Assembly: GCF_002161285.1 (NCBI RefSeq)
Contig: NZ_NFHH01000004.1
Location: 1 to 64,000 of the forward strand
DNA length: 64,000 nt
Source: Blautia sp. An81
GTDB taxonomy: Bacteria; Bacillota; Clostridia; Lachnospirales; Lachnospiraceae
Direction of reading: 5' to 3'
Shown here in pieces: positions 50,524 to 63,437 of this stretch. The translations under genes were made by a program, and so were the position numbers. Positions within the stretch are counted from its first letter, which is position 1. Each line of letters starts with the position of its first letter. Below the pieces are notes generated by a model, which was not told where the DNA came from, ran no database searches, and was given only the letters and a program-made list of their open reading frames with translations.

Positions 50524-52590
50524 ATGACAGACATTATCAAAAGAGAGGGGGAGCCTACCGGGGACTTCCGCTCAGACAACAAATTTTTATTAGGGTATTT
50601 TGAAGTGAAGGACAATGCCCTTTATTACCGCTATGACGCAGAGCGGGTGATCGTGGAACCATGGGGAAAAAACAGCCTCAGGGTCAGGGCCTCTAAGATG
50701 CCTGAAATGCCTCAGGAGCTCTGGGCACTGGATAAAAAGCCGGAAGATGACCAGCCGGAGATTAGGATTCATGAATTCAGCGCGGAGATTAAAAATGGTA
50801 AGATCAAAGCAGTGATCAATAACATCGGAAAGATTATTTTCTACAATCAGAAGGGCGAGACGCTTCTGGAGGAGTATGTACGTAACCGGGAGGACATGTT
50901 TGCGGATACCTGCAGCTCTCTGGAAGTAGAAGCCAGAGAGTTTAAGCCTATCATTGGCGGAGACTATCAGCTTACTATGCGTTTTGAGTCTAATCCTAAT
51001 GAGAAAATCTATGGCATGGGACAGTATCAGCAGAAATTCCTGGATGTAAAAGGCGCTGAACTGGAGCTGGCTCACAGAAATTCACAGGCCAGCGTACCCT
51101 TTGCCCTGTCCTCTTTGGGATATGGATTCCTCTGGAACAACCCTGCAGTAGGAAGAGTAAGCTTCAACAAAAATATTACTACCTGGGTGGCCCAGTCTAC
51201 AAAGAAATTAGATTACTGGATCACTGCAGGAGATACTCCGGCAGAGATTGAAGAAGCTTATGCAGACGCTACAGGAAAGGTTCCCATGATGCCGGAATAT
51301 GGTATGGGATTCTGGCAGTGCAAGCTCCGGTATCAGACACAGGAAGAACTGCTGGAAGTAGCCAGAGAGTATAAGCGGAGAGGGATTCCTATTGATGTGA
51401 TCGTAGTAGACTTTTTCCATTGGCCAAAACAGGGAGACTGGAGATTTGATCCCACTTATTGGCCGGATCCTGATGCAATGATACAGGAATTAAAGGAAAT
51501 GGGAATTGAGCTGATGGTATCTATCTGGCCTATGGTAGATTACAAGAGTGAGAATTTTGAAGAGATGAAGGCCAAAGGACTTCTCACAAGAGTAGAGAAA
51601 GGCGTTCGCATTGACAATACTTATATGGGAAATACGATTCAGTACGATCCTACCAACCCGGAAGCCAGAGAGTATGTCTGGGGTAAGGCAAAGAAAAACT
51701 ACTATGATAAAGGGGTTAAAATCTTCTGGCTGGACGAGGCAGAACCAGAATATACAGTTTATGATTTTGAAAACTATCGTTATCATCTGGGGCCTAACGT
51801 ACAGATTGGAAATATCTATCCTGCCATGTATGCCAAGACATTTTTTGACGGTATGAGAGCTGAAGGCCAGGAGGAAGTTGTAAACCTGCTCCGCTGTGCC
51901 TGGGCTGGAAGCCAGAAGTATGGAGCATTGGTGTGGTCCGGGGATATCCATTCTACTTTTGAAAGCCTGCAGAACCAGTTTGCAGCAGGATTAAATATGG
52001 GAATTTCCGGAATACCATGGTGGACCACAGATATCGGAGGATTTTTCGGAGCGAATATTTACGATAAGGACTATCATGAGGTCTTTGTCCGCTGGTTTGA
52101 GTATGGAACCTTCTGTCCGGTAATGCGGCTTCATGGTTACCGGATGCCTTATCAGCCTCAATACGGAACTACCGGAGGCGCTGAGTGCGTGTCAGGAGCT
52201 CCTAATGAAATCTGGTCCTATGGGGATGAAGTATATGAGATCTGTAGGAAATACATAGAGTTGAGAGAGGCCATGCGTCCTTATATAAGATCCCTGATGG
52301 AGGCTGCTCATGAGAAAGGAACACCGATCATGCGTCCGCTGTTCTATGATTTTCCTGAGGATAAGATATGCTGGGACAATGAAAGCCAGTATATGTTCGG
52401 ACCGGATATTTTAGTTGCTCCGGTTATGGAGAGGGGACAGAAAACGAAAGAAGTTTATCTGCCGAAGGGATATACCTGGACAAACCCATGGACCAAAGAG
52501 AGCTTTGAAGGCGGACAGACTGTGACCGTTGAAACTCCATTGGAGCAGATTCCATTATTCACTAAAGGAGAATTTAAACTGGAGGTATAA
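50524..52590 (+). CDS. GH31 glycoside hydrolase, paralog 1 (alpha-xylosidase/alpha-glucosidase type)
   Basis: Protein of 688 residues with no signal peptide, so cytosolic. N-terminal beta-sandwich (about 1-230), GH31 barrel with nucleophile Asp404 (IFWLDEAEPEY) and probable acid/base Asp474 (VWSGDIHSTF), then C-terminal beta domains. The WLDEAEPE form differs from maltase-type GH31 (WNDMNEP) and from YicI (KTDFGER), and is nearer to archaeal/Bacteroidetes xylosidase types. Substrate is most likely an alpha-xylosyl or alpha-glucosyl oligosaccharide imported by the adjacent permeases. It is closely similar to the next gene. Confidence 0.9.
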   Translation: MTDIIKREGEPTGDFRSDNKFLLGYFEVKDNALYYRYDAERVIVEPWGKNSLRVRASKMPEMPQELWALDKKPEDDQPEIRIHEFSAEIKNGKIKAVINNIGKIIFYNQKGETLLEEYVRNREDMFADTCSSLEVEAREFKPIIGGDYQLTMRFESNPNEKIYGMGQYQQKFLDVKGAELELAHRNSQASVPFALSSLGYGFLWNNPAVGRVSFNKNITTWVAQSTKKLDYWITAGDTPAEIEEAYADATGKVPMMPEYGMGFWQCKLRYQTQEELLEVAREYKRRGIPIDVIVVDFFHWPKQGDWRFDPTYWPDPDAMIQELKEMGIELMVSIWPMVDYKSENFEEMKAKGLLTRVEKGVRIDNTYMGNTIQYDPTNPEAREYVWGKAKKNYYDKGVKIFWLDEAEPEYTVYDFENYRYHLGPNVQIGNIYPAMYAKTFFDGMRAEGQEEVVNLLRCAWAGSQKYGALVWSGDIHSTFESLQNQFAAGLNMGISGIPWWTTDIGGFFGANIYDKDYHEVFVRWFEYGTFCPVMRLHGYRMPYQPQYGTTGGAECVSGAPNEIWSYGDEVYEICRKYIELREAMRPYIRSLMEAAHEKGTPIMRPLFYDFPEDKICWDNESQYMFGPDILVAPVMERGQKTKEVYLPKGYTWTNPWTKESFEGGQTVTVETPLEQIPLFTKGEFKLEV

Positions 52591-54712: not shown

Positions 54713-55408
54713 ATGGGTAAGAAGAAAACAGGAAGAAATATATTCGGATTTGATGGCAGCTTTATCAATATCTGTGATAAGATATTTGATGTAATGGCCC
54801 TGGGATTTTTATGGATCCTGTGCAGTCTTCCTATTGTGACCATAGGAGCTTCTACCTCGGCTTTATACTATGCCATGGTAAAATGTGTGAAAAAGGGCGA
54901 CGGCTATATTGCCAGAGAATTTTTCCGGTCTTTCCGGCTGAATCTGATGTCCGGATGCTTTATCTGGATACTGGTAGTAGCAGCCACCTTTGCCATGCAT
55001 TTAAATATTGGAATCCTGATGAAGGAAACCGACGGATATGTGGGACTTTTCTTTATCTGTGTCTACGCCCTGACTTCTGTATTTATTCTGGCGGTTTCCT
55101 GCTATGTATTTCCAGCTCTGGCACGGTTTGATATGAGCAGCGGCTGGCTGATCAAGCTGGCTATGTATATGACAGTGCGGTATTTTGGCACTACTTTGGC
55201 CCTGTTTCTCATACTGTTTTGCACAGGAGCCATCATCTGGCGCTTTCCTATACTGATGATCTTTGCGCCGGGGCCGGTAATCTTTCTCATGTCAGAGTTC
55301 CTGGAGCGAGTGCTGAAAAAACATGAGCCCGGAGAGGAAGACCAGAAGGAAGAGCCTGTGAGAGAAATACAGAAAAGGGATGACAAATTAGATTTACAGG
55401 AGGAATGA
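54713..55408 (+). CDS. YesL/DUF624 family membrane protein
   Basis: Protein of 231 residues with five or six membrane segments and a charged C-terminal tail (about 200-231). Pattern of DUF624: GFDGSFINICDKIFDVMALGFLWILCSLPIVTIGASTSALYY, marked as LWILCSLPIVTIGAST. These proteins are regularly encoded with YesM/YesN and sugar ABC genes, as here, but their role is not established. It overlaps the next frame's upstream ATG but ends 2 bases before GTG 55411. Confidence 0.88.
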   Translation: MGKKKTGRNIFGFDGSFINICDKIFDVMALGFLWILCSLPIVTIGASTSALYYAMVKCVKKGDGYIAREFFRSFRLNLMSGCFIWILVVAATFAMHLNIGILMKETDGYVGLFFICVYALTSVFILAVSCYVFPALARFDMSSGWLIKLAMYMTVRYFGTTLALFLILFCTGAIIWRFPILMIFAPGPVIFLMSEFLERVLKKHEPGEEDQKEEPVREIQKRDDKLDLQEE

Positions 55409-55410
55409 TC

Positions 55411-57660
55411 GTGAAATTTACAAATGGATACTGGCTTTTGAGAAAAGAAATGGAGCCTGCATATGCAGTAGAATATGCAAGCCACCAGATTGATGGAAGC
55501 ACATTAACGGTGTATCTTCCCAGCAAACATATTTCTGGGAGAGGAGACTGCTTAAATATCCCGATGCTGACGCTGACCCTTTCCAGCCCTATGGAAGGAG
55601 TGATCAAGGCCTCGGCAGTGCATCATGCAGGAGCTCTGTATAAGGGACCTATTGCTCAGGTGAACCAGAGAGATACCCAGGTTGAGATCACGGAGACAGA
55701 TACCCAGGTAATCTATCGTTCCGGCTCCCTGCGGGCAGTGATCGATAAGGCCCCTTCCGGTTATAAACTGGCTTTCTATGAAGGAGAGAAATTCCTTACA
55801 GAGTCCAGTTTCCGGAATCTGGCCCATATGTATAATAATAAGACAGAGAAGGCTTATATGCTGGAACAGCTTTCCATTGACGTAGATGAATACATCTATG
55901 GTCTTGGAGAACGGTTTACGCCTTTTGTGAAAAATGGACAGGTTGTAGAGATGTGGAATGAGGATGGCGGTACAGCCAGCGAAATTGCATACAAGAACAT
56001 TCCATTTTATGTAACGAATAAAGGATACGGGGTTCTGGTGGACAATCTGGGAGATGTTGCTTTTGAGATTGCCAGTGAAAAGGTAGAGAGGATCCAGTTT
56101 TCCGTAGAAGGAGAAAGACTGGATTATTACTTTATCAGCGGCGGAAGTCCTATGGGAACTGTGGAAAAATATACGGATCTTACAGGAAAACCTGCTCTGC
56201 CCCCGGCCTGGTCTTTTGGTCTTTGGCTGACTACATCTTTTACAACGAATTATGACGAGGAGACAACCTCCAGCTTTATCCAGGGAATGGCAGACAGGAA
56301 GATTCCTCTCCATGTATTCCATTTTGACTGTTATTGGATGGACGCCTATGAGTGGTGCAATTTTATCTGGGATCCCAAGACTTTCCCGGACCCCAAGGGA
56401 ATGCTGAAAAGATACCATGACCGGGGACTGAAAATCTGTGTGTGGATCAATCCCTATATCGGACAGAAATCTGTGCTTTTTAAAGAGGGCATGGAAAAGG
56501 GATATCTGGTAAAGAAGAAAGATGGAAGCGTATGGCAGTCTGACTTGTGGCAGCCAGGTATGGGACTGGTGGACTTTACCAACCCTGACGCAGTGGCCTG
56601 GTATCAGGAAAAGCTGAAGACTCTTCTGGATATGGGTGTGGACTGCTTTAAGACAGACTTCGGTGAGAGGATACCGGTGAAGGATATTGAATATTTTGAC
56701 CATTCTGATCCGGTGAAAATGCACAATTACTATACATACCTTTATAATAAGACAGTATTTGAGCTTCTGGAAAGAGAGCGGGGAAAGGGAGAAGCAGTGC
56801 TTTTTGCCCGTTCCGCTACAGTAGGAGGACAGCAGTTCCCGGCTCACTGGGGAGGAGACTGTTCTGCCACTTATGTTTCTATGGCGGAGACTCTCCGTGG
56901 AGGACTGTCTCTTTCTCTGGGAGGTTTTGGATTTTGGAGTCATGACATCAGCGGTTTTGAGAGTACCGCTACTCCTGATATCTATAAGAGATGGTGCCAG
57001 TTTGGGCTTTTAAGCTCCCACAGCCGTCTCCATGGCTCTGGCTCCTACCGTGTACCCTGGCTTTTTGACGAGGAGGCCTGCGATATCCTTCGGGAGTTTG
57101 TGAACCTGAAATGCCGGCTGATGCCTTACATTTATGGACAGGCAGTGAAATCTCATGTAAAGGGAACTCCTCTGCTCCGCCCAATGTTCCTGGATTTCCC
57201 CCAGGACAGAGCCTGCGATACTCTGGACCGTCAGTATATGCTGGGAGATTCTCTTCTGGTTGCCCCTGTATTTAAAGAATCAGGGGAGGTGGACTATTAC
57301 CTGCCGGAAGGAACCTGGGTGAATATCCTGACCGGAGAGAAGAAAACAGGAGGAAAGTGGATAAAAGAAACTCATGATTATCATTCTCTGCCTGTTATGC
57401 TCCGGCCCAATACGGTTCTTCCTATGGGAAATAATGATCAGGTTCCGGATTATGATTTTACAGACCAGGTGACATTGGTGATCGGAGAATTCGAAGAGGG
57501 AGCCCGTACCTGCGTGGAGATTCCGGATACAAAAGGAAATACCGTAATGAAGGTTCAGGCCAGAAGAGAGGGAGAAGAGATTCTTCTTTCCGTGGAAGGC
57601 GGAAAAGGTAATTTCCAGATTAAAAACCTGGGAAGCCAGGCTGTTAAAGTAGAAAGTTAA
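55411..57660 (+). CDS. yicI: Alpha-xylosidase, YicI type (GH31)
   Basis: Protein of 749 residues from GTG 55411, seven bases after AGGAGG; starting there gives MKFTNGYWLL, matching the YicI N-terminus, and places the nucleophile at Asp416 (CFKTDFGERIP), the same number as in E. coli YicI. The acid/base is Asp483 (HWGGDCSATY). Substrate-site residues in HVFHFDCYWM and GFGFWSHDISGFE also match. It removes alpha-1,6-linked xylose, for example from isoprimeverose, in the cytosol. It is the last gene of the locus. The YicI assignment is much firmer than the substrates of the other two GH31s. Confidence 0.94.
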   Translation: MKFTNGYWLLRKEMEPAYAVEYASHQIDGSTLTVYLPSKHISGRGDCLNIPMLTLTLSSPMEGVIKASAVHHAGALYKGPIAQVNQRDTQVEITETDTQVIYRSGSLRAVIDKAPSGYKLAFYEGEKFLTESSFRNLAHMYNNKTEKAYMLEQLSIDVDEYIYGLGERFTPFVKNGQVVEMWNEDGGTASEIAYKNIPFYVTNKGYGVLVDNLGDVAFEIASEKVERIQFSVEGERLDYYFISGGSPMGTVEKYTDLTGKPALPPAWSFGLWLTTSFTTNYDEETTSSFIQGMADRKIPLHVFHFDCYWMDAYEWCNFIWDPKTFPDPKGMLKRYHDRGLKICVWINPYIGQKSVLFKEGMEKGYLVKKKDGSVWQSDLWQPGMGLVDFTNPDAVAWYQEKLKTLLDMGVDCFKTDFGERIPVKDIEYFDHSDPVKMHNYYTYLYNKTVFELLERERGKGEAVLFARSATVGGQQFPAHWGGDCSATYVSMAETLRGGLSLSLGGFGFWSHDISGFESTATPDIYKRWCQFGLLSSHSRLHGSGSYRVPWLFDEEACDILREFVNLKCRLMPYIYGQAVKSHVKGTPLLRPMFLDFPQDRACDTLDRQYMLGDSLLVAPVFKESGEVDYYLPEGTWVNILTGEKKTGGKWIKETHDYHSLPVMLRPNTVLPMGNNDQVPDYDFTDQVTLVIGEFEEGARTCVEIPDTKGNTVMKVQARREGEEILLSVEGGKGNFQIKNLGSQAVKVES

Positions 57661-57674
57661 GAGGATAAAAAGAA

Positions 57675-57730
57675 TGGCAGGGGAATCGGAGCTGCCCACA
57701 GTTCCGATTCCCCTGCCATCACCATTTTTT
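57675..57730 (+). terminator. Terminator of the GH31 locus
   Basis: 16-bp perfect stem (57675-57690 with 57703-57718; core GGCAGGGGAATCGG) and T-run at 57725-57730. Confidence 0.85.
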
Positions 57731-57747
57731 ACATGGATATGGTGCAA

Positions 57748-57940
57748 TACGGTTAAACAGAGATTTTCGAGATTTCAACCGTAGTTTTGAAGAAGATTGT
57801 ACGGTTAAAATAGAAGATTTGAAGATTTCAACCGTACTTTAAAGAAAATTATACGGTTAGAAAGTGCAATATAGGAAATTTAACCGTAATACTACGTGGA
57901 ATTATACGGTCAAAAATGGATTTTGAAGATTTTAACCGTA
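57748..57940. repeat. Array of four palindromic units, alternating sites every ~26 bp
   Basis: Four units (57748-57783, 57800-57836, 57852-57888, 57905-57940) each have TACGGTTAAAA-like left arm and TTTCAACCGTA-like right arm (consensus half-site TACGGTTRAAA) with about 15 bases between; spacers of 15-16 bases differ. Unit period is 52, 52 and 53 bp. Viewed as single sites, the eight half-sites start at 57748, 57773, 57800, 57826, 57852, 57879, 57905 and 57930, alternating in orientation. The array lies between two terminators in a convergent gap. No gene is visible in 57661-58035. Confidence 0.85.
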
Positions 57941-57950
57941 TAGGGAGGGG

Positions 57951-57999
57951 AAAGCTGCGGCATTAAGCAAGATTGAAAATGCTTAATGCCGCAGCTTTT
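57951..57999. terminator. Strong bidirectional terminator after the ABC-2 permease gene
   Basis: 19-bp perfect stem (57951-57969 with 57980-57998; arms begin AAAGCTGCGG and end CCGCAGCTTT). The A/T flanks serve both strands. Confidence 0.85.
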
Positions 58000-58035
58000 A
58001 TCTAGTGCGCCTGGCGGCGCAGATTTCCAGAAGTG

Positions 58036-58902
58036 TTAGTCAAGATTCAGTTTCTTTGTCATGATATACCGGCTTCCCAGGTAGAAAACAATAGATAAGA
58101 TCAGGTACCATGACAGCAGGAAGATTGTCTGAGCGTTTCCGCTTCCTCCTGTACTTGAAATAACCTTTCCGCTTTCAGTAGTAACGACTGTACTGATAGG
58201 ACTGAGAGGAGGAATGATAAACATTAAAATCAGCATGACTATACTCTGGCCCATATTGATTCCGAAGAAGGCCACAAGAGCTCCAAGGGTCTTGTGTGTT
58301 TTAAACAGACTGCCCAGACAGATGGAGAACAAGATCAAAGCAGTAAAGTAGAAGAAGTATTGTATGAGAAGTCCGAGAACTACTCCAAGAGCTTCCAGCA
58401 TAGCATTAAAGCCACCGAGTCCAAAAAGACTCCCAAAGAATGAATGAAAGCCTTCTACAATATCCGGCATTGTATCAGGATAGCTGACCAATATGAAAAT
58501 CGATAGAGCTACACATAAAAAGTCAATGATTGACCAGGTCCAGAATACCAGGATCTTGGACCAGAGTATCTTGTCACAAGATACAGGAAGGGTATTGGTG
58601 AGATATCCCTCTTCAGAGAATAAGCTTTTCTGCATCCGTACGGCCAGATAGAGGATGGTAGCCAAAACTATACCGATAATAAATATAGCATAGATCATGA
58701 TATAAGCTACGGCCCCCAGGCCAAAGATGGTGGTAGAAAGAGATAGGTGGGTATCGAAATTCTCCCCTCTTCCTGAGGCCATATTTTCCCCAATGGTGAT
58801 GGCAAGTCTTCCGATGATACTGTAGGCCAGCAGTACCCCATGAAGGATCAGAAGGATCATGGAGACAGATTTCCAGTCATATTTATATAATTTTTTCAGC
58901 AT
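58036..58902 (-). CDS. ABC-2 type transporter permease
   Basis: Protein of 288 residues with about six membrane segments (near 15-38, 68-92, 115-138, 170-195, 205-230, 262-282). Sequence begins MLKKLYKYDWKSVSMILL. It pairs with the ATPase encoded just upstream (overlap 7 bases) as an exporter or stress-response transporter of the GntR/YtrA-regulated class. Substrate unknown. Confidence 0.85.
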   Translation of the reverse strand: MLKKLYKYDWKSVSMILLILHGVLLAYSIIGRLAITIGENMASGRGENFDTHLSLSTTIFGLGAVAYIMIYAIFIIGIVLATILYLAVRMQKSLFSEEGYLTNTLPVSCDKILWSKILVFWTWSIIDFLCVALSIFILVSYPDTMPDIVEGFHSFFGSLFGLGGFNAMLEALGVVLGLLIQYFFYFTALILFSICLGSLFKTHKTLGALVAFFGINMGQSIVMLILMFIIPPLSPISTVVTTESGKVISSTGGSGNAQTIFLLSWYLILSIVFYLGSRYIMTKKLNLD

Positions 58903-61106: not shown

Positions 61107-62432
61107 CTAAGGAGCTGCTGTATAGAGACCTTTGGCTTTTTGAAAGGCTTTCTGTACCTGAAGCAGAAGTCCAGGTTCCGTGAGCAGCTCTAAAGCACAG
61201 GAGGACAGGATTTTTCCTGCGGCCAACATTCCTTTATGAGCTGCAGAAGATTTTCCTTGAGCGGTTACGGTCCAGTGATGAAGAGGGGAACCGTTGGCGT
61301 AACAGCAAACCATAAAGGCAGTACAGGGCAGAATCTGACTTACATTGCCCACATCAGTGGAAATACCGGTTTTCCTGGTGGGGGAGAGGTCAGGGATATC
61401 GTCAAAGCCCCTGTCTGTTTCAGGCAGATTTCCATAAGGAAGAAAATTTCTGGCATAGGCCTCTTCACTGGGAGCGTGGACAGGGGTATAAAGCTTCAGG
61501 TATTTCAAGACAAGCTGGTCTAAGACAGGATTTGGCAGAAGGCTGTCATAGACGCAGGCAGTTTCAATGTCTACAGAAGTTCCGGTCATCAGGGCAGCTC
61601 CACGGGCGATGTCGTCCACCCGCTCTCGCAGCAGCCGGGCGTCTTCACTTTTGGGGGCCCGCACGGCATAAAAGACCTGGGACCGGGAGGGGATAATATT
61701 AGGCGCAGTTCCCCCGGCGTCAGTATAAGCGTAATGAACCCTGGCTTCATCGATCATGTGCTCCCGAAGATAATTGACTCCAACATTCATCAGTTCACAG
61801 GCATCCAGAGCGCTTCGGCCTAAATGGGGAGACTGAGAAGCGTGGGCGCTGGTACCGTGAAAAGTGTAGTAGACTCTGTGGTTGGCCAGGGCCTGATTAA
61901 AGATTCCGGATTGGTAGTGGGGATGCCAGGAAAAAGCAGCGTCCACATCTTTAAAGAAGCCTTCTTCGATCATGAAAGCCTTGCCAGCCGCGTTTTCTTC
62001 GGCAGGACATCCAAAATACAGGATAGTGCCGGGAAGCTTTTCCTGTTCCATGATATCTTTCAGGAAAAGAACCCCTGCCAGAACTCCGCAGCCCAGGAGA
62101 TTATGTCCGCAGCCGTGTCCTGCAGAAGAACTTGTGGGAGCTGGAGCGGCGATATCTGCTTTCTGAGACAAGCCGGGAAGGGCATCATATTCCCCCAGAA
62201 AACCCAATATGGGTCTGCCATAGCCCCAGCGGGCAGTAAAAGCGGTGGGGAGCTTTTCAGAAGGTGCTGATATGGAAAATCCCTGCTCTTCCAGAATCGA
62301 TTTCAAAAGACTGCTGGAGCGGTGTTCCTGGAAAGCAGTCTCTGCAAACTCCCAGATAGAATCTGCGGCAGAGATAATGAGAGACTGATATTTTTCAATG
62401 AGAGAAGTATAGTCGATTTTTGATATGTTCAC
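61107..62432 (-). CDS. M20 family amidohydrolase (AbgB-like)
   Basis: Protein of 441 residues. Metal-ligand motifs of the M20D family: SSAGHGCGHNLLG, FGCPAEENAAGKAFM, SWHPHY, and a late His region (SPLHHWTVTAQGKSSAAHKGM, marked as SPLHHWT). An insertion dimerisation domain occupies about 200-310. AbgB-like enzymes hydrolyse p-aminobenzoyl-glutamate or related amides; the true substrate here is uncertain. Cytosolic. Transcribed toward the nitroreductase gene and sharing a terminator region with it. Confidence 0.88.
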   Translation of the reverse strand: MNISKIDYTSLIEKYQSLIISAADSIWEFAETAFQEHRSSSLLKSILEEQGFSISAPSEKLPTAFTARWGYGRPILGFLGEYDALPGLSQKADIAAPAPTSSSAGHGCGHNLLGCGVLAGVLFLKDIMEQEKLPGTILYFGCPAEENAAGKAFMIEEGFFKDVDAAFSWHPHYQSGIFNQALANHRVYYTFHGTSAHASQSPHLGRSALDACELMNVGVNYLREHMIDEARVHYAYTDAGGTAPNIIPSRSQVFYAVRAPKSEDARLLRERVDDIARGAALMTGTSVDIETACVYDSLLPNPVLDQLVLKYLKLYTPVHAPSEEAYARNFLPYGNLPETDRGFDDIPDLSPTRKTGISTDVGNVSQILPCTAFMVCCYANGSPLHHWTVTAQGKSSAAHKGMLAAGKILSSCALELLTEPGLLLQVQKAFQKAKGLYTAAP

Positions 62433-62588
62433 TCTGATCGTACCTCCTTTTCAGGTATGCTATGACTACTATCATAACACATATAGATAAAAAGAGATAA
62501 GGAGCATTACAAGAAAGAGAGAATTTTTGAAAAATTTCTGGGGAAATATAGCAGAAGGAAAATAGAAAGGAAATTTGGACATGAAAAA

Positions 62589-62661
62589 AGCGCGAGACGG
62601 GACTCGAACCCGCGGCCTCGACCTTGGCAAGGTCGCGCTCCACCAACTGAGCCACTCGCGC
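62589..62661 (-). tRNA. tRNA-Gly (anticodon GCC)
   Basis: Read on the minus strand: acceptor GCGCGAG (62661-62655) pairs with CTCGCGC (62596-62590), discriminator T at 62589 as usual for bacterial tRNA-Gly, anticodon stem CGACC/GGTCG with loop TTGCCAA (anticodon GCC), T loop TTCGAGT. The length is 73 nt and CCA is not encoded; a T-run follows the 3' end directly. A perfect palindrome abuts the 5' end. Confidence 0.96.
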
Positions 62662-62663
62662 AT

Positions 62664-62693
62664 GTTACCTGTGCTCTCGTGAGCACAGGTAAC
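62664..62693. repeat. Perfect 13-bp inverted repeat at the tRNA-Gly 5' end
   Basis: GTTACCTGTGCTC (62664-62676), TCGT loop, GAGCACAGGTAAC (62681-62693). It ends 2 bases before the tRNA 5' end. It may be a leader hairpin in the pre-tRNA, or a terminator of the ktrA-like gene upstream on the same strand. Confidence 0.75.
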
Positions 62694-62771
62694 AATATAC
62701 TATATCTGGAATGGTTTGTCAATGTTTTTTTGAAAATTTATATTGAAAAATTTTCAGCCAATCTTTGAAGC

Positions 62772-63437
62772 TTAAATATCGTGTTCAAACTTCCAGATGT
62801 TATCCATTTTTCCGATTACTACCAGGATGTCCTCTTTACGGATCCGATATTCCGGAGAAATCTCTGTTTCCGTGCTGCCATCACTTTCAATGGCAATGAT
62901 GTTCAGACCATATTTTTTTCGGATATCCAGACGTTCTATGCTGATCCCGGCGATACGGTCTGTAACAGGAATCTGCTGGATTTCAACCTCATTGCTCAGA
63001 GTGATAAAGTCCAGAAAATTGTTATTGGCGATCAGGCGTTTGCCAAGGCGGAGAGCCATATCCCGCTCCGGATATACTACCTCTGCACCGATTTTTTCCA
63101 GTACCGTTCCGTGGTCACTGCTGATCGCTTTGGAGATCACATGAGGAACGCCAAGACTTACCACATTTAGTGTAGTGAGAATACTGATATCAATTTTTTC
63201 ACCGATGCATACGATAACAGTATCACAGTTCTGGATACCGATCTCCTGAAGCGCTTCCTTTGAAAGATTGTCTGTGACAAAAGCATATTCCGTATAGTGG
63301 CGGAGCTCTCTTACTTTTTCTTCATTGCAGTCTACTACGATGACATCTTTTCCTGCTTCAGACAGGCTCATAGCAAGAGCTGTGCCAAAACGTCCAAGAC
63401 CAATTACACCAAAAGTTGAAGATTTTGTATTTTTCAT
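62772..63437 (-). CDS. TrkA/KtrA-type potassium channel regulatory subunit
   Basis: Protein of 221 residues from ATG 63437 (SD AAAGGAG, 11 bases upstream). RCK_N Rossmann domain with FGVIGLGRFGTALAMSLSEAG (marked as GLGRFGTALA) and acidic residue in VIVVDCNEEKV binding NAD(H)/ADP/ATP; C-terminal RCK_C domain (about 140-221). It gates the membrane subunit encoded just upstream (17 bases between stop and start). Confidence 0.93.
   Translation of the reverse strand: MKNTKSSTFGVIGLGRFGTALAMSLSEAGKDVIVVDCNEEKVRELRHYTEYAFVTDNLSKEALQEIGIQNCDTVIVCIGEKIDISILTTLNVVSLGVPHVISKAISSDHGTVLEKIGAEVVYPERDMALRLGKRLIANNNFLDFITLSNEVEIQQIPVTDRIAGISIERLDIRKKYGLNIIAIESDGSTETEISPEYRIRKEDILVVIGKMDNIWKFEHDI

Follow-up and report, generated by a model that had tools for sequence, protein, structure and literature searches.

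Helically phased arrays of inverted sites in Blautia sp. An81 and their association with a nuclease-like gene family in Lachnospiraceae

CRISPR arrays consist of near-identical repeats of 23-47 bp separated by unrelated spacers. In the type III toxin-antitoxin systems (ToxIN and relatives), tandem repeats lie directly upstream of the toxin gene and act as RNA, and the toxin is an endoribonuclease with a fold other than PD-(D/E)XK. To our knowledge, the EDxHD/Vsr-like PD-(D/E)XK nucleases are not associated with arrays. TIGR-Tas systems have a tandem array that adjoins an effector gene and in which each unit contains two conserved elements and two variable stretches (PMC12045711). Finally, in the case of the REP/BIME elements and their RAYT enzymes, extragenic sites are clustered and alternate in orientation, the chromosomal gene for the enzyme adjoins its cognate repeat, the two change jointly, and the presence of the repeat follows that of the gene (PMC2817692). 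The arrays described here resemble this last system in that they are extragenic and alternating and that the dispersed copies go with an enzyme gene that has a cognate copy next to it, whereas the enzyme family differs. We found no description of this pairing of repeat and enzyme in the open-licence literature; an account elsewhere is possible.

The window, that is, the whole stretch of 64,000 nucleotides that was analyzed, contains an array at 57748-57940 in which eight sites match TACGGTTRAAA with zero or one mismatch and alternate strictly in orientation, starting at 57748(+), 57773(-), 57800(+), 57826(-), 57852(+), 57878(-), 57905(+), and 57930(-). The 7-bp core TACGGTT is spaced by 29, 23, 30, 22, 30, 23, and 29 bp, and the sites form four units of the type TACGGTT-N22/23-AACCGTA with periods of 52, 52, and 53 bp. 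The array and its borders are as follows.

55405..57660, + strand: left neighbor, glycoside hydrolase family 31 (751 aa, PF01055)
57674..57719, + strand: intrinsic terminator of the left gene and left border of the array, 20-bp stem with T-run CACCATTTTTT
57748..57783: palindromic unit 1, TACGGTT 57748-57754 (+) and AACCGTA 57777-57783 (-)
57800..57836: palindromic unit 2, TACGGTT 57800-57806 (+) and AACCGTA 57830-57836 (-)
57852..57888: palindromic unit 3, TACGGTT 57852-57858 (+) and AACCGTA 57882-57888 (-)
57905..57940: palindromic unit 4, TACGGTC 57905-57911 (+), with one mismatch, and AACCGTA 57934-57940 (-)
about 57951..57996, + strand: right-border hairpin with a long perfect stem, T-run on the + strand side
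58036..58902, - strand: right neighbor, putative membrane protein (permease) of 288 aa, adjoining an ABC ATPase gene

A score for chains of properly spaced, alternating sites reaches 45 for this array, compared with 6 in the remaining window and a maximum of 9.5 in 20 shuffles of the whole window, and no second such chain was found within the 64 kb. This confirms the original prediction of eight alternating sites that are unique within the window. The same prediction placed the array between two strong terminators, which is true of the left hairpin but not of the right one. The latter carries its T-run 3' of the stem on the + strand, so that a permease transcript arriving from the right would lack a proper T-run there (the terminator scan covered loops of up to 8, and this hairpin, whose loop is longer, was read directly from the sequence). 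The view that the array is no ordinary operator of its flanking genes is supported, and on its sequence it resembles a phased array of protein-binding sites.

The motif is not confined to this gap. The window's genome contains 20 TACGGTT-N10-35-AACCGTA pairs as opposed to one for the reversed control, and long arrays of the window design are found at the pair loci. Using a sequence model built on 77 units, for which nearly all matches below E 0.1 were clustered, we count about 15 intergenic arrays of up to eight units with a 52/53-bp period in this genome of 4.3 Mb, or about one array per 290 kb. The predicted consensus TACGGTTRAAA is valid genome-wide in its TACGGTT core, which is followed by an A-rich stretch, whereas the RAAA is particular to the window array. 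Spacing was evaluated in 40 well-scored arrays from congeneric genomes and one related genus, in which the inner spacing is 30 or 29 (28 in one case), the outer spacing is 23 or 22 (24 in two cases), and the period is 53 (176 instances), 52 (130), 51 (17), or 54 (2). A + site comes first in 36 of the 40 arrays and a - site comes last in 33, which indicates that the palindromic unit is the repeating unit. Based on a simple ORF call, arrays occupy 19 convergent, 18 tandem, and four divergent gaps, mostly at the 3' ends of genes.

Some arrays consist of nearly identical units, which points to recent expansion by duplication and would fit a neutral tandem duplication of an A+T-rich spacer. The original prediction reserved this explanation for the case of decayed, unphased copies in close relatives and no other loci with the motif. 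Given that about 15 loci are found in the genome, that the spacers have diverged with half-sites and spacing kept, and that the half-sites are conserved between species, we attach next to no probability to it. Between orthologous arrays from related species, the divergence is 3.6% in half-sites, 15.6% in spacers, and 10.7% in flanks, which are partly coding; differences were counted over ordered pairs, which doubles the counts and leaves the rates unaffected, and the half-sites of a pair were identified in one of its two members from their likeness to the consensus, which biases the comparison slightly in their favor. Individual pairs give 1/70 for half-sites versus 49/174 for spacers (L252/L271) and 9/77 versus 102/192 (L167/L266). 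Thus, constraint in the solo arrays, that is, those away from the gene described below, falls on the half-sites, with about four-fold less divergence than in the spacers.

The distribution of the arrays within the genus is close to all-or-none. Out of 20 congeneric genomes, eight are array-rich, one (G017) has a single short array, and 11 have none, with little between. Across about 298 genera of the family, mostly represented by one genome each, only one other genus (G040) has TACGGTT arrays; single TACGGTT pairs in further genera look like chance matches and were dismissed. The window design is also present in metagenome-derived Lachnospiraceae (L034, L058, L072, and L132). With the permease gene as the anchor, the orthologous gap was found to hold five or six units in G016, five in G019, a truncated array in G009, and a remnant in G002, and no array was found in the orthologous gap of G006 and G015. 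Permease identity is 74-80% among array-bearing species and 42-52% for the others. The array-bearing congeners look like one clade, and the co-occurrence of gene and array within the genus is therefore close to a single event.

When the gap in G006 (C183, L394) is compared with positions 57735-58010 of the window, the array and the right hairpin are absent between two GTGC tetramers; in the window's genome, the two tetramers flank these same elements. Either the segment was deleted between the short repeats, or it was inserted with duplication of 4 bp. In G016, most units of the window-array orthologue (C17, about 52338-52478; L393, L411-L413) carry TACGGTAG/CTACCGTA in both arms, a form that a genus-wide search found nowhere else. 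As it is confined to one array, we read it as a local change that spread by tandem duplication, and a second dispersed family with this variant (ACGGTAG/CTACCGT) was rejected.

Comparison of the genes that flank arrays singled out one gene family. Its member in the window's genome lies outside the window, 65 kb from the window array, and has an array of its own.

C34:122767-122905: array of the TACGGTT design just upstream of the gene
C34:122950-123741: 264-aa nuclease-like gene

The original prediction had considered that the array is the target of an element encoded elsewhere, and this gene is a strong candidate for that element since the same array lies upstream of it. Orthologous arrays adjoin orthologues of the gene in G006, G009, and G016. 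In the other genus, a homologue that is 66% identical is located just downstream of a TACGGTT array. A search of the genus returned the gene from all eight array-rich genomes and from no others, apart from a 46-aa fragment in G010.

There are two paralogues of the gene, A, which is linked to TACGGTT arrays, and B, which is about 65% identical and has its own upstream array with sites that include TACGG(T/C)AGAAA. Two separate ORFs make up paralogue A in G009 and G016, an intact copy of it was not seen in G002, G015, G018, and G019, and paralogue B is split in the window's genome; at least one open copy or long open part is kept in every array-rich genome except the fragmentary G009. Although paralogue A is split or was not seen intact, the TACGGTT arrays are well kept in these six genomes (G009, G016, G002, G015, G018, and G019), where paralogue B or another protein would thus have to bind them. 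The broken paralogue B of the window's genome (C11, about 62312-62967; L299, L302) has an upstream 53-bp array with a motif around TATACC, and the two are probably a second array-gene pair that is dying. No gene remnants were found at solo arrays. Dispersal is not universal, as in G062 we found the gene-linked array but no solo arrays of that lineage's own motif.

These distributions bear on the suggestion, also made in the original prediction, that the arrays are chromosome-organizing or replication sites of a host DNA-binding protein, in which case the nuclease-like gene would be a bystander or a captor of the sites. The density of the arrays, their intergenic location, the constraint on the half-sites, and the strict phasing are what such sites should display. 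The suggestion is weakened by the 11 congeneric genomes without arrays, by the fact that two relatives have lost the array at the orthologous position, and by the change of the array motif with the lineage of the nuclease-like protein, and we judge it to be distinctly unlikely.

Several lines of evidence concern the nature of the protein. Although no convincing Pfam or NCBIfam match was found among 51 homologues, the PADLOC models PDC-S68 (51/51, best E 1e-32), HEAT_CxxC_PDDEXK (45/51), and PDC-S69 (43/51) match them, and the matches cover the C-terminal half of the query. The defense candidates PDC-S68 and PDC-S69 have a homologous C-terminal domain; PDC-S68 differs in that its models are multidomain proteins of about 1200 aa, whereas here the domain is part of a 264-aa protein with an array. 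There are also weak matches to PHROG endonuclease and Holliday junction resolvase families, and E161, D192, and E207 (conserved acidic active-site residues) as well as H208 are invariant in the 51 homologues. A search of the PDB by sequence gave no match. The same C-terminal domain ends long proteins of viral contigs (ORFs of 747 to over 1100 aa) as well as plasmid AAA ATPases, and in viral contigs and plasmids this domain was found without any full-length relative. One full-length homologue (33%), which is without a clear upstream array, is encoded on an unannotated 'phage' scaffold from faeces.

An AlphaFold2 model of a homologous viral domain, rather than of the 264-aa protein itself, has a core pLDDT of about 80-95. 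Its best structural match is the catalytic domain of the homing endonuclease I-Bth0305I (Z 10.1, 94 residues, 2.8 A), followed by Bax1, TnsA (Z 7.9), and VRR_NUC among others; plain Foldseek with this model returned no match below E 0.001. Based on this model and on the PADLOC matches, the C-terminal half of the 264-aa protein is predicted to be a PD-(D/E)XK nuclease domain of the Vsr/homing-endonuclease-like type. It would share its fold and the E...D...(E)H pattern with the EDxHD/Vsr-like nucleases I-Bth0305I, TnsA, and Bax1, from which the protein differs by its additional, unrelated N-terminal half. We saw neither an intron nor transposon ends, and no partner helicase.

The association of gene and array extends across the family. 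Homologues of the 264-aa gene are present in 98 of the 299 sampled genomes, and most have an upstream tandem array whose half-site differs by lineage. In the 93 cases with enough upstream DNA, a periodic array is found upstream of 65 homologues and downstream of 16 (called at an identity of at least 0.52, the largest shuffled value being 0.47), and about 30% of homologues are without a clear upstream array. Control upstream regions are periodic in 14 of 333 cases, most of which are TACGGTT arrays already counted, and in 2 of 81 cases, that is, about 3-4%. An independent method, TRF, places an array upstream of 61 of 95 homologues. Inverted arms exceed shuffles at p<=0.05 in 30 of 61 array units, where about three are expected; examples include GGCGGCTG...CAGCCGCC, AATTACGTGT...ACACGTAATT, CCGACTGA...TCAGTCGG, and CATACGTTG...CAACGTATG. 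A word of at least 9 bp is common to 12 of 21 pairs of homologues at 65-80% identity and to about 6% of pairs below 65%, as with the window's genome and G040 (TACGGTT core) or G173 with G026 and G174 (TGACCGCAAA). The half-sites are thus lineage-specific and common to close homologues only. At L325, L330, and L384, a periodic array also lies downstream of the homologue, and a few loci may have arrays on both sides of the gene.

Unit lengths across the gene family are 51-54, 60-64, 71-75, and 85 bp. These classes, near 53, 63, 74, and 85 bp, correspond to five, six, seven, and eight helical turns, and the helical phasing put forward in the original prediction is thereby strengthened. The period that gives the strongest phasing is 10.5 bp, and the phase offset is 0.13 bp. 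Rayleigh p-values are inflated by the shared 53-bp class, and a better test is that, outside this class, 23 of 25 values deviate from a multiple of 10.5 by no more than 2 bp. On the protein tree, many forks of which are weak, there are at least 14 changes in the number of turns. The close homologues G295, G303, and G138 have the word TTTGATGCTTT in common, and their units of 73, 62, and 62 bp are one turn apart. Whole-turn units are natural for proteins stacked on one DNA face and hard to explain for RNA.

Tandem repeats directly upstream of an effector nevertheless constitute the layout of type III toxin-antitoxin systems and in part that of TIGR. Given this layout, the array could act at the level of RNA, be it as hairpins, as an RNA antitoxin, or as guides for the downstream effector. 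If the unit is treated as a hairpin with its 13 possible pairs, 76.5% of cells are paired as compared with 76.3% after shuffling. The arms do not covary as RNA pairs, every measure of covariation being equal to its shuffled value, and outer-base mismatches such as AACGGTT...AACCGTA are common among units. RNA hairpins, which the original prediction had listed as a small repeated element, were rejected on the lack of covariation, and Rfam matches are below gathering scores. The likeness to type III systems is that tandem repeats immediately precede a gene of the nuclease type. It ends at the lack of RNA covariation, the quantization by DNA turns, and the predicted PD-(D/E)XK-like domain, and no Pfam or NCBIfam match to a ToxN/AbiQ-type endoribonuclease was found among the 51 homologues. 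TIGR-Tas has the same unit layout next to an effector, with repeat sequences that differ between loci. Here, however, the half-sites of a unit are one and the same site in opposite orientations, the length of the unit keeps to DNA turns, and the variable stretches drift gradually between units, whereas TIGR spacers are unrelated; the hallmark Nop domain had no Pfam or NCBIfam match among the 51 homologues. Furthermore, unit steps of 10.5 bp fit DNA and not RNA, the modeled fold is of a DNA-nuclease type, and dispersed solo arrays have no place in such systems. We therefore consider an RNA-level array very unlikely. A CRISPR array was rejected as well, as only 7-11-bp half-sites are kept and the intervening stretches drift and are common to neighboring units and species.

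Two features define REP/RAYT, and the arrays lack both. The enzyme here is PD-(D/E)XK/Vsr-like by prediction, whereas RAYT is a Y1 transposase, and the repeat is a helically phased array of short half-sites, whereas REP is a hairpin with a GTAG-type head. In addition, REP/RAYT repeats flank the gene on both sides, whereas here the array is upstream, and there are tens of copies rather than hundreds. Repeats driven by a RAYT were rejected because PF01797 is absent from the array-rich G009, G015, G016, and G018; it is present in the array-less G001, G003, G004, and G010. A REP-like hairpin palindrome was rejected given that the arms are 22-23 nt apart and show no covariation above shuffles. Thus, arrays and gene are REP/RAYT-like in logic and fall outside REP/RAYT on both the transposase and the hairpin.

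The hypothesis that we favor, as probable, is that an array-associated nuclease-like protein binds a cognate DNA array, as we infer, and that the window array is one of the dispersed 'solo' copies of this array. The N-terminal half would be the DNA-reading part and the C-terminal half the PD-(D/E)XK/Vsr-like nuclease domain. The protein would bind inverted half-sites as dimers, and successive dimers may stack cooperatively on one DNA face, since every unit spans a whole number of turns. The array in front of the gene itself could serve autoregulation and/or act as a nicking substrate. Through nicking or nuclease action, arrays could grow, shrink, and reach further intergenic gaps as copies made by recombination, and the solo arrays, including that of the window, would be dispersed copies kept by the protein or a paralogue.

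Alternatively, the arrays may be operators only, in which case an autoregulated protein would have its regulon or titration sites in the solo arrays, with neither mobility nor nuclease action. Gene-linked arrays are indeed upstream, within the promoter region, and half-sites are constrained. Nonetheless, the solo arrays are mostly at 3' ends and the window array lies beyond a terminator, so no obvious promoter is regulated, and the invariance of the catalytic residues, the wide variation in copy number, and the loss of loci in relatives also argue against this alternative, which we hold to be unlikely.

On the hypothesis of a nuclease-like protein with dispersed copies of its array, the system may represent a new class of bacterial repeat-enzyme partnership. 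In such a partnership, a small protein of a nuclease family would read helically phased arrays that precede its gene and consist of inverted half-sites, with half-sites that change with divergence, units of whole turns, and solo arrays seeded in some lineages, and it would be widespread in one large gut family. We regard the case for this new class as evenly poised. The predicted nuclease-like family is undescribed and is linked to a site architecture with a period quantized in helical turns, and about one third of the genera sampled in this major gut family show the association. If true, this would be a second, unrelated solution to the problem of REP/RAYT, namely the mutual upkeep of a chromosomal enzyme and dispersed intergenic repeats. 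The family would also offer a natural series of protein/site pairs with matched changes in specificity, in which each lineage predicts, in a testable way, the site of its own protein.

Two further observations concern individual loci of the TACGGTT family. The arrays of G040 at C4, C10, and C75 (L179-L181) are at contig ends, as if near-identical units broke the assembly, and array numbers from draft genomes are thus lower bounds. In the window's genome, the top-scoring match is a lone unit between convergent genes (C14:55568-55604, L172), and the same position in G018 and G019 likewise bears matching units.
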